Shown one piece after another: positions 6,400-61,256 of a stretch of 64,000 bases of DNA (position 1 is the first letter of the stretch; each line of letters opens with the position of its first letter). A program made the position numbers and the translations under genes. The stretch is from Jiangella ureilytica (GTDB taxonomy: Bacteria; Actinomycetota; Actinomycetes; Jiangellales; Jiangellaceae), in assembly GCF_004348545.1 (NCBI RefSeq), contig NZ_SMKL01000019.1:1-64000 (forward strand), read 5' to 3'. Under the pieces are notes generated by a model that was not told the DNA's origin, made no database searches, and saw nothing but the letters and a program-made list of their open reading frames with translations.

Positions 6400-6408
6400 C
6401 CGCCACTC

Positions 6409-6446
6409 GTGCGCCTGGTCGTTCCCACGGGAGCGACCAGGCGCAC
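6409..6446 (+). terminator. Hairpin terminator after the surface-protein gene
   Basis: A perfect 13-bp inverted repeat, GTGCGCCTGGTCG and CGACCAGGCGCAC, around a 12-nt loop begins 10 nt after the stop codon. There is no T-tract, as is common in high-GC actinobacteria. Confidence 0.8.
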
Positions 6447-6589
6447 GACCCTGTTCGACTCGCATGCGGAGTCGCGCTCCGCCCGGCCGTGGTCGAACGT
6501 GATCGTGAGGCAACGCCGGCGTACCTTTTCGAGCAAGATCAACTTCGGTGGTGCGGAATCGCCGTCACCGACGACGGGTTGGAGGAGGC

Positions 6590-21258: not shown

Positions 21259-21490
21259 GTCTTCACTGCCGCCGACGGTCTTCACTGCCGCCGACGGTCT
21301 TCACTATCGCCGACGGTCTTCACTGCCGCCGACGGTCTTCACTGCCGCCGACGGTGCCTCGCCCAGGAGCTCGCGGCTTCACTGCCGCCGACGGTCTTCA
21401 CTGCCGCCGACGGTGCCTCGCCCAGGAGCTCGCGGCTTCACTGCCGCCGACGGTCTTCACTGCCGCCGACCGTCTTCACTACCGCCGACC
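21259..21490 (+). repeat. 19-bp tandem repeat array with higher-order 59-bp period
   Basis: Ten units of GTCTTCACTGCCGCCGACG are arranged as five, two and three copies, separated by two identical 22-bp spacers at 21354-21375 and 21413-21434. The first unit after each spacer lacks one base. Units 3 and 10 carry ACTATCG or ACTACCG variants. Spacer plus two units gives a 59-bp higher-order repeat. The array lies between two converging genes. Confidence 0.9.
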
Positions 21491-21528
21491 GTCCTCGGAG
21501 CGCAGGAACGTCCGCCGAAGACTGCCTT

Positions 21529-21560
21529 CGATAGTGAAGACGACCGCTGGAAGTGAAGAC
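21529..21560 (-). repeat. Inverted copies of the 19-bp repeat core
   Basis: CGATAGTGAAGAC (21529-21541) is the exact reverse complement of the first 13 bases of the array's variant unit 3, and AGTGAAGAC recurs at 21552-21560. They could pair with array units in RNA to form stem-loops. Confidence 0.75.
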
Positions 21561-30332: not shown

Positions 30333-30378
30333 TCGAGGGCGAGTGACCACTGCTGGAGCAGCGGTCACTCGCCCTCGA
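30333..30378. terminator. Strong bidirectional hairpin
   Basis: TCGAGGGCGAGTGACC and GGTCACTCGCCCTCGA form a perfect 16-bp stem, with an inner CTGCT/AGCAG stem and a GG loop. It lies between converging genes and would stop both transcripts. Confidence 0.88.
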
Positions 30379-47096: not shown

Positions 47097-47779
47097 CGGA
47101 CGAGGTACTGGTGGCGGTGGCGCACGGGACGCGTGCGCCCGAGGGCCCTGTCGTGTTGGCTGATCTGCTGGACTCGGTGCGGGAGTTGCTGCCCGGGGTC
47201 GACGTCCGGGTGGCGTACGTGGACGTGATCGCGCCGACCTTGTCGTCCGTTCTTTCGGACGTGCCTGCCGGGGTCCGGCCGGTCGTGGTGCCGATGTTCC
47301 TGGCGTCCGGGTACCACGTGCGGGTGGACGTGCCGGCCGCGGTGGCGTCGGACGGCGGGCGGGCGGTCGTGACGCCCGCGCTCGGCCCCGATCCGGCGGT
47401 CGTGGCCGCGGTCGAGTCGCGGCTGCGCGCTGCCGCGGGATCGCTGCCGTCCGCGGTGGTGCTGGCCGCGGCGGGCTCGTCCGATCAGGACGCGCTGGCG
47501 GAGGTCTCGGTGGCGGCGTCGCGGCTGTCGTCGTCGCTGGGCGGCCTGCCGGTCGTTCCCGCCTACGTCACGACGGCGTCGCCCTCGGTCCCCGACGCGG
47601 TGGCGTCGCTGCGGTCGGCCGGCCACGCGACGGTCGCGGTGGCGTCGTACCTGCTGGCGCCAGGACTGTTCCAGCAGCGCCTCGACTCCGTCGGCGCCGA
47701 CGTCGTCGCGCCGCCGATCGGCGTGCACCCGTTGGTGGCCGAGCTGATCGCCGCCCGCTACCGTGCCGCCGTCGGTTGA
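47093..47779 (+). CDS. Sirohydrochlorin chelatase, CbiX type
   Basis: A 228-residue two-lobe chelatase. VAVAHGTRAPEGP carries the first metal-binding His; VVVPMFLASGYHVRVDVP contains the second His region. The second lobe has the degenerate counterpart AAAGSSDQDALAEV. It would insert Fe2+ into sirohydrochlorin to finish sirohaem for NirB. Last gene of the coupled run from nasA; its stop lies inside the terminator hairpin at 47778-47827. Confidence 0.88.
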   Translation: MTDEVLVAVAHGTRAPEGPVVLADLLDSVRELLPGVDVRVAYVDVIAPTLSSVLSDVPAGVRPVVVPMFLASGYHVRVDVPAAVASDGGRAVVTPALGPDPAVVAAVESRLRAAAGSLPSAVVLAAAGSSDQDALAEVSVAASRLSSSLGGLPVVPAYVTTASPSVPDAVASLRSAGHATVAVASYLLAPGLFQQRLDSVGADVVAPPIGVHPLVAELIAARYRAAVG

Positions 47780-47827
47780 TGGTTGAGGGATTCGTGTCGC
47801 TCTGGCGACACGAATGCCTCAACCATC
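47778..47827. terminator. Shared bidirectional terminator covering two stop codons
   Basis: GATGGTTGAGG-G-ATTCGTGTCG pairs with CGACACGAAT-G-CCTCAACCATC around a CTCTGG loop: 21 pairs with one internal mismatch. The stem includes the stop codon of the chelatase gene on the left and that of the minus-strand immunity candidate on the right. Confidence 0.9.
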
Positions 47828-54828: not shown

Positions 54829-54900
54829 GTTGATCTTGGAGTAACGGCGGAGTTCCAGGGCGATATGCCGGATTGATCCCGCGGTTACTCCAAGATCAAC
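54829..54900. repeat. 17-bp perfect inverted repeat with 38-nt loop
   Basis: GTTGATCTTGGAGTAAC (54829-54845) and GTTACTCCAAGATCAAC (54884-54900) form a long stem after the Lrp gene. It may be a terminator, but its TTGATC-TTGGAG arms resemble those of the tilS element at 60332-60392, suggesting an interspersed palindromic family. AAGATCAACTTCGG, related to its outer edge, also occurs alone at 6535-6548. Confidence 0.85.
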
Positions 54901-59587: not shown

Positions 59588-60679
59588 ATGCGACACCCGC
59601 ACCTCGACGTCCGGCGGGCCGTGCGCACGGCCCTGTCCGGCCTGCCCGACGGGTCGGCGGTGCTCGTCGCCTGCTCCGGCGGGGCCGACTCGCTCTCCCT
59701 GGCCGCGGCGACGGCGTGGGTGGCGGCCCGTGGCGGGTCGCGGGCCGGCGCGGTCTGCGTCGACCACGGGCTGCAGCCGGGCTCGGCGGACCAGGCCCGT
59801 TCGACGGCGGCCGCGCTGTGCGGGCTGGGGCTGGACCCCGTCGTCACTGTGCATGCCGACGCCTCGCGCGGGCCGGACGGGCCGGAGGGCAACGCGCGGG
59901 CGGTCCGGTACGCGGCACTGACGGCGGCGGCCGAACGGACGGGTGCGGCCGCGGTCCTGCTCGGGCACACCCTCGACGACCAGGCCGAGACCGTCCTGCT
60001 GGGATTGGCCCGCGGGTCGGGTCCGCGGTCGCTGTCCGGCATGGCGGCCCGGTCCGGGGTGTTCCTGCGGCCCCTGCTCGGGTTGCGCCGCTCGGTCGTG
60101 CGGGCGGCACTGCCCGCCGGCCTCGAGCCCTGGGACGACCCGCACAACGAGGAGTTCGCGTACGCACGGGCGCGGGTCCGGCATCGGGTGCTGCCCGTGC
60201 TCGAGGCGGAGCTGGGCCCGGGAGTGGCCGAGGCACTGGCCCGCACCGCCGAGCTCGCCCGCGCCGACGCCGACGCCCTCGATGCGCAGGCCACCGCGTT
60301 CTTCGCGAGCGACGCGCGCGATCGATCCGGGGTCGATCATGGAGAAAGCGGTGTTCCGGACCGCCGGAAACCCGGGCCTCTCCATGATCGACAGTCTGGA
60401 GGCGTTCCGCTGGCGGTCACCGACCTGGCGGCGCTGCCGCGGGCGGTGCGGTGGCGTGTCCTGCGGCGGGCGGCGATCGCAGCCGGCAGCCCGCCGACCG
60501 ACCTCACGGCCGCCCACGTCGCCGCCATCGACACCCTGGTGACGGCCTGGCGCGGCCAGGACGGGATCGACCTTCCCGGCGCGATCCGCGCCACCCGCGC
60601 CGAAGGGGCCCTCCACCTCACCCCCCGCACGGGGACGGCGGCCGGCGGGCAGGGCGAACCGCCTCCCCCGCACCCGTAG
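59588..60679 (+). CDS. tilS: tRNA(Ile)-lysidine synthetase
   Basis: A 363-residue N-type PP-loop ATPase. [19 protein letters not shown] is the ATP PP-loop, [10 protein letters not shown] and [19 protein letters not shown] are conserved, and [21 protein letters not shown] lies in the family's substrate region. It makes lysidine in the CAU anticodon of tRNA-Ile2, which is essential. Between residues about 249 and 269 a palindromic element (60332-60392) is read in frame, adding a charged, non-conserved segment to the C-terminal part. The reading frame is intact, so the protein is probably functional. Confidence 0.92.
60332..60392. repeat. Palindromic element inside tilS
   Basis: GTCGATCATGGAGA (60332-60345) and TCTCCATGATCGAC (60379-60392) are perfect 14-bp arms; an inner TTCCGG/CCGGAA stem (60354-60359, 60364-60369) caps it. 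It is inserted without breaking the tilS frame. Confidence 0.85.
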
Positions 60680-60704
60680 GCGCGACGTGTGAAAGGCTGC
60701 CGTC

Positions 60705-61256
60705 GTGGATCCAGAACATGTCGACGGCGACCTCGAGAAGATCCTCCTGAGCGAGGAGGAGATCCAGGGCCGGCTGGCCGAGATGGCGGCCGACATCGAG
60801 CGCGACTACGCGGGCAAGGATCTGCTGCTCGTCGGCGTGCTCAAGGGTGCGATCATGGTCATGGCCGACCTCAGCCGGCACCTGTCGCGGCACGTCGAGC
60901 AGGACTGGATGGCCATCTCGTCGTACGGCTCCGGCACCCGGTCCAGCGGCGTGGTGCGCATCGTGAAGGATCTCGACACCGACATCACCGACCGGCACGT
61001 GCTAGTGGTCGAGGACATCATCGACACCGGCCTGACGCTGTCGTGGCTGGTCTCGAACCTGCGCTCGCGCGGGGCCGCGTCGGTCGAGGTGTGCACGCTG
61101 CTGCGCAAGCCCGAGGCCGCGAAGACCTCCGTCGAGGTGCGCTACGTCGGCTACGACATCCCCAACGCGTTCGTGGTCGGGTACGGCCTCGACTACGCCG
61201 AGCGCTACCGCAACCTGCGGGTCGTCGGTACTCTGGCGCCGCACGTGTACAGCTGA
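60705..61256 (+). CDS. hpt: Hypoxanthine phosphoribosyltransferase
   Basis: A 183-residue type I PRTase. VLKGAIMVMADL is the flexible loop region, SSYGSGTRSSG the catalytic loop, and VLVVEDIIDTGLTL the PRPP-binding signature. It salvages hypoxanthine (and guanine) to nucleotides. GTG 60705 is taken as start; it follows tilS by 25 bp in the conserved tilS-hpt-ftsH order. Confidence 0.95.
   Translation: MDPEHVDGDLEKILLSEEEIQGRLAEMAADIERDYAGKDLLLVGVLKGAIMVMADLSRHLSRHVEQDWMAISSYGSGTRSSGVVRIVKDLDTDITDRHVLVVEDIIDTGLTLSWLVSNLRSRGAASVEVCTLLRKPEAAKTSVEVRYVGYDIPNAFVVGYGLDYAERYRNLRVVGTLAPHVYS

Follow-up and report, generated by a model that had tools for sequence, protein, structure and literature searches.

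The tilS gene for tRNA(Ile)-lysidine synthase (59588..60679, plus strand; TIGR02432, E=3e-36) lies within the analyzed window, a stretch of 64,000 nucleotides from Jiangella ureilytica, and hosts a long palindrome which is translated together with the gene. The question raised by this locus is where the palindrome came from and what may have put it there.

The palindrome in tilS

The palindrome is 61 bp long (60332..60392, no strand assigned) and consists of the left arm GTCGATCATGGAGA (60332..60345, plus strand) and the right arm TCTCCATGATCGAC (60379..60392, plus strand), which is the complement of the left one at 14 of 14 positions and is separated from it by 33 nucleotides. Since codon 249 of tilS starts exactly at position 60332 and base 60392 lies inside codon 269, the palindrome is read in frame, its coding content being 20 residues plus one base. 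A hairpin of 61 bp with perfect 14-bp arms translated within TilS, as stated in the preliminary description of this DNA, is therefore indeed present. Folded as RNA, this strand reached -45.5 kcal/mol (z -3.9), and as DNA -24.7 kcal/mol (z -4.0); in neither case was a value as low obtained with any of 200 shuffled sequences. A search of Rfam gave no matches over 59600-61000.

In the AlphaFold model of TilS, residues 249-270 form the sole disordered internal stretch, and the residues encoded by the palindrome appear as a low-confidence linker. An alignment with TilS of 22 other actinobacteria revealed that this linker is unrelated in sequence and ranges from 0 to about 25 residues in length. Both results agree with the earlier suggestion that the element landed in a flexible loop, and the alignment, which had been proposed as a check, disclosed linkers of unequal length. 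Within the genus, the palindrome was found only in the tilS genes of genomes G000, G005 and G009, at the identical site in all three, while the remaining congeners have a linker without it that is either short or holds other sequence. Because the tree of the tilS core is poorly resolved, a loss in G001, which is the sister of G000 in this tree and lacks the palindrome, and a repeated gain are both compatible with it and cannot be separated. The same linker contains a different, common expansion (PPGPGGTQPYGWAPT-like) in G002, G008, G004 and G011 (loci L158, L159, L161 and L162); in G011 it is up to 534 bp longer and consists in part of simple repeats.

Palindrome families and their cognate nuclease genes

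The palindrome is not unique to tilS. It belongs to a family with at least 20 copies in this Jiangella genome, whose consensus is 61 bp long with symmetric ends (GTTGATC...GATCAAC). The arm noted in the preliminary description, GTCGATCATGGAGA, belongs to this family but is a variant, the consensus arm being GTTGATCATGGAGAA. The proposed genome-wide count yielded eight occurrences of the arm core TCGATCATGGAGA in the 6.35-Mb genome and none of a reversed-pattern control. BLAST searches with the tilS element detected more than 15 further full-length copies, and a scan for arms detected 27 palindromes, 22 of 60-62 bp (class A1, the tilS element's own 61-bp class) and five of a 72-bp sister family (class A2). 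In the 12 congeners, 11 to 156 A1 arms per genome were counted, again with no hit for the reversed-pattern control. Because it recurs in the genome, the tilS palindrome is far beyond chance. Two more solo palindromes are located in the window, both without strand assignment: a class-A2 copy of 72 bp (GTTGATCTTGGAGTAA..., 54829..54900), whose cognate nuclease gene lies at G000:C154, and a class-B copy of 50 bp (GATGGTTGAGGGAT..., 47778..47827), whose cognate nuclease gene at G000:C81 is frameshifted and has a copy on each side. Class B comprises about 19 palindromes genome-wide (control 0).

Some further repeats were observed. At locus L007 (approximately 1430-1515; G000:C113:93571-93657), a class-B palindrome is directly followed by A1 pieces, a mosaic that looks as if one had landed beside the other. 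An imperfect inverted repeat of another type with repeated GTCTTCACTGCCGCCGACC-like units occupies positions 21453-21560 of the window, and the short strong hairpins at 6407-6448 and 30333-30378 are probably ordinary terminators. A distinct long palindrome, TTGCAATGAGCACC(C/T)ATACGCACCAC, occurs in two species (L271, 6047-6121; L280, 6765-6832) and possibly represents a further family.

In 53 A1 copies, the inner stem pairs 16-20 covary far above shuffled alignments; at pair 18/44, for instance, T-A and C-G are both common, and at pair 19/43 C-G and G-C. The same holds true for stem pairs 15-20 in 21 A2 copies, and in the tilS copy itself a T-to-C substitution in one arm is matched by A to G in the opposite arm. 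The compensatory changes indicate that the palindromic structure is maintained, though hairpin-templated correction could be another source of them. Of 88 distinct A1/A2 copies classified with a crude coding call, 65 scored as intergenic and 17 as running across the end of a gene, which leaves no more than six that scored as intragenic, among them the one in tilS (L152). Selection of the element for preserving a reading frame does not fit this distribution, nor a length of 61 bp, which is not divisible by three; besides, the linker in tilS varies in any case. General selection for coding was dropped as an explanation, since intergenic copies predominate.

In the own genome, two pairs of full palindrome copies were identified that lie about 1.03 kb apart, each pair enclosing one gene. 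The C-terminus of the enclosed protein is a Vsr-like nuclease (Pfam MTES_1575 and DUF559), and its N-terminal half matches AbiEi HTH profiles and thus resembles the winged helix of AbiEi. The four other closest relatives of this nuclease found in the genome all adjoin palindromes as well, but these differ in sequence, one being of class A2 (72 bp, GTTGATCTTGGAGTAA) and the others representing three types of class B (48-54 bp); in two of these loci the gene is bordered on both sides. On the left, the palindrome precedes the start of the profile match by approximately 60-150 bp, and on the right it lies at the stop codon. At one locus (L190, G000:C81:14482-15644), two intact class-B palindromes enclose a nuclease gene that a frameshift has disrupted; this element is dead, while about 19 palindromes of its family persist in the genome. 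Since S, E and D in the nuclease core are 100% conserved in 94 proteins, nuclease activity is plausible. The best PDB profile match, albeit weak (E=0.018), was the EDxHD homing endonuclease I-Bth0305I (3r3p), which by sequence would share a related Vsr-like catalytic core and whose family reportedly dimerizes on a target of nearly 60 bp (PMC3943268). A dimer with a target of about this size would fit a dyad of 50-72 bp, with one protein per arm. Confirmed relatives of the nuclease were absent from viral contigs, and plasmid searches gave only four and one weak matches.

To quantify the association, a profile was built from five of these nuclease proteins. It detected about 150 places in 12 Jiangella genomes, and 73 distinct loci were read with their flanks. 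Strong inverted repeats were present at the gene ends of 61 of the 73 loci, on both sides in 31 and on one side in 30; at the threshold used, the palindrome was missing at 12 of these genes and at 7 of 38 from other Actinomycetes. Adjacent to the nuclease genes, 93 strong inverted repeats were counted in 41.6 kb, of which a few are spurious (e.g., a coding repeat that L201 and L235 share on the downstream side), whereas the more distant 319 kb of these regions contained five. This corresponds to 2.24 per kb within approximately 260 bp of the gene ends against 0.016 per kb, a 143-fold difference; control DNA of the same genus contained 0.07 inverted repeats per kb, which are partly members of the same families. 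Left and right palindromes of a locus are cognate: their similarity is 0.82, while palindromes of different loci reach 0.42 within a class and 0.24 overall, and none of 20,000 permutations equalled this result. Moreover, the higher the identity of two proteins, the more alike their palindromes tend to be (Mantel r=0.62, 0 of 5,000 permutations, 94 loci). Each nuclease lineage thus appears to have its own palindrome of about 45-75 bp. The sampling covered Actinomycetes only, where 234 of 297 genomes encode the protein family (E at most 1e-10). Among 38 loci from genera other than Jiangella, palindromes accompany the gene in 31 (on both sides in 15, on one side in 16), mostly with a sequence of their own, and just two inverted repeats were found elsewhere in 186 kb.

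The position of the palindromes, upstream of the gene and at its stop codon, could also be explained if they were operators or terminators of the winged-helix protein and the solo copies remnants left after deletion of the gene. The AbiEi-like N-terminal half is in line with this explanation since antitoxins of the AbiEi type bind inverted repeats. On the other hand, an operator needs no matched copy at the 3′-end, and solo copies outnumber the genes by tens to one, as in G001 with 148 arms and two A1 genes. Regulatory sites of this kind are thus an unlikely origin of the palindromes, and the solo sites themselves provide a further argument against them.

Occupied and empty sites

Signs of movement were sought by searching joined-flank probes from G004 across the genus. 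Next to a metG-like gene, G004 and G001 carry the element in plus orientation and G002, G006 and, in truncated form, G008 in minus orientation, whereas G011 and G005 lack it. A second site holds the element in G004, G007, G008 and G009 and, inverted, in G002, but is empty in G000 and G001. At a third site, G004 possesses a class-A1 element, G010 and G008 a solo class-C palindrome, and G000 neither of them. A solo A1 copy of G004 has a clean empty counterpart in G011; the two genomes are 95% identical around tilS. What a sister genome shows at a solo site is, hence, a clean empty site and not the remnant that the operator explanation predicts. The same intergenic spots have thus been occupied, vacated or reoccupied across species. 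Because some elements look vertically inherited, movement is not constant. As to tilS, the assumption that its palindrome is an insertion was corroborated by the repeat family in the genome, by the tilS genes of most congeners, which lack it, and by the orthologous empty sites of the family.

Target duplications of at least 3 bp were found at none of 88 copies (1.27 expected) and in none of the empty-site alignments, which distinguishes the palindromes from classical DDE insertion sequences and MITEs. The flanks of the copies are C-rich on the left and G-rich on the right, and their complementarity (5.20 of 12 positions) slightly exceeds the permuted mean (4.73, sd 0.15). This may point to a preference for hairpin-prone sites past gene ends.

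Comparison with known systems and proposed element

Palindromes associated with a gene of their own are known from the REP/BIME sequences and their RAYT (TnpA-REP) genes. In these ‘REPtrons’, the gene is flanked by palindromes, repeat and gene coevolve, and many solo copies exist, mostly intergenic or near gene ends (PMC2817692, PMC3733652). The loci described here resemble them in all of these respects: one gene is bordered by palindromes, on one or both sides, in the majority of loci inside and outside the genus, the repeat coevolves with its own gene, as seen from the left-right cognacy and the Mantel test, and there are many solo copies, which are likewise mostly intergenic or near gene ends. 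However, the protein is a winged helix joined to a Vsr-like endonuclease rather than an HUH Y1 transposase of the IS200/IS605 type, the palindromes are full dyads of 45-75 bp with symmetric ends whereas REPs have 20-40 bp and GTAG at one end, and the loci studied here are found in Actinomycetes. A search for the RAYT/Y1 transposase (PF01797) gave no match in the own genome, while control genomes did match. Because the enzyme is unrelated and a RAYT gene is absent, the element works like REP/RAYT but is not a member of this group.

It is conceivable that the palindromes are MITE- or REP-like sequences moved in trans by an unrelated transposase, the nuclease being a passenger or a domesticated neighbor. 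G009 could be cited for this, as it contains 135 class-A1 arms, yet no cognate A1 nuclease gene among its loci examined, and so could the fact that the role of the nuclease in mobilization is itself deduced indirectly. Judging from G009, the number of copies is not a simple function of the gene residing in the genome, though the mobilizer may have been lost there or be very divergent. Against a transposase acting in trans stand the lack of a Y1 transposase in the own genome and the locus-cognate palindromes, which covary with the nuclease sequence across the whole class; a mere passenger would not own a separate palindrome sequence in each lineage. We therefore regard this possibility, too, as improbable.

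An ordinary homing endonuclease gene interrupts its own target site and thereby renders occupied alleles immune. In the loci described here, by contrast, two intact palindromes flank the gene and the site is uninterrupted; dispersed solo copies and the N-terminal AbiEi-like winged helix are further differences, notwithstanding the similar catalytic core and a target size that would fit. The likeness to the palindromic elements of Rickettsia (RPEs) noted in the preliminary description stands as an analogy, since in RPEs and other in-frame MITEs a hairpin repeat is also translated within a conserved gene (PMC10969869), but it does not extend to a dedicated nuclease gene flanked by its own palindromes. 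That the repeat is RPE-like and retained for its translatability is very improbable, even though the tilS copy is in frame and common to three species, since the family is mostly intergenic, 61 bp is not a multiple of three, and RPEs are described as elements of about 150 bp without a dedicated transposase gene.

We conclude that the loci probably represent a mobile element in which an endonuclease gene lies between two palindromic ends, and that the palindrome in tilS would be a solo, non-autonomous copy of such an end. In a wider sense, we lean towards a class of elements common among Actinomycetes, with a winged-helix Vsr-like endonuclease as the product of their sole gene and with lineage-specific palindromes of 45-75 bp as their ends, which the enzyme would recognize and spread, also as solo copies within genes such as tilS. 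What was observed is the repeat family, the association of gene and palindrome, their cognacy, the covariation in the stems and the presence/absence polymorphism, whereas nuclease activity as well as binding and mobilization of the palindrome by this enzyme are inferred. A complete element would measure about 1.0-1.1 kb and comprise a palindrome, the nuclease gene (PDDEXK/EDxHD-type) and a second palindrome copy overlapping or just past the stop codon. Winged helix and nuclease may bind, as a dimer, the two arms of the palindrome in the form of a duplex, cruciform or single-strand hairpin, and cutting may occur at the palindrome or at C-rich/G-rich sites prone to hairpin formation shortly beyond gene ends. 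Repair of the cut would then copy the palindrome or the entire element without target duplication, and solo copies would arise by copying of the palindrome alone or by recombination between the two ends. One copy would have entered the disordered linker of tilS, where 61 bp together with small indels preserved the frame; it is present in at least three species. In the open-access literature, no earlier description of DUF559/MTES_1575 genes with palindromes as a mobile element was found.

The MTES_1575/DUF559 nuclease domain occurs in most of the actinobacterial genomes sampled but still carries the label of unknown function or is classed among the AbiEi antitoxins. With the palindromes, these proteins gain a concrete candidate substrate and a role, that of a selfish element in which an endonuclease of the Vsr/homing type replaces the transposase. 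If this is true, an unrelated enzyme would be added to the REP/RAYT way of life, and many anonymous hairpins between actinobacterial genes would be accounted for. Moreover, with a separate palindrome for each nuclease lineage, dozens of natural enzyme-site pairs would be available for deducing the rules of specificity.
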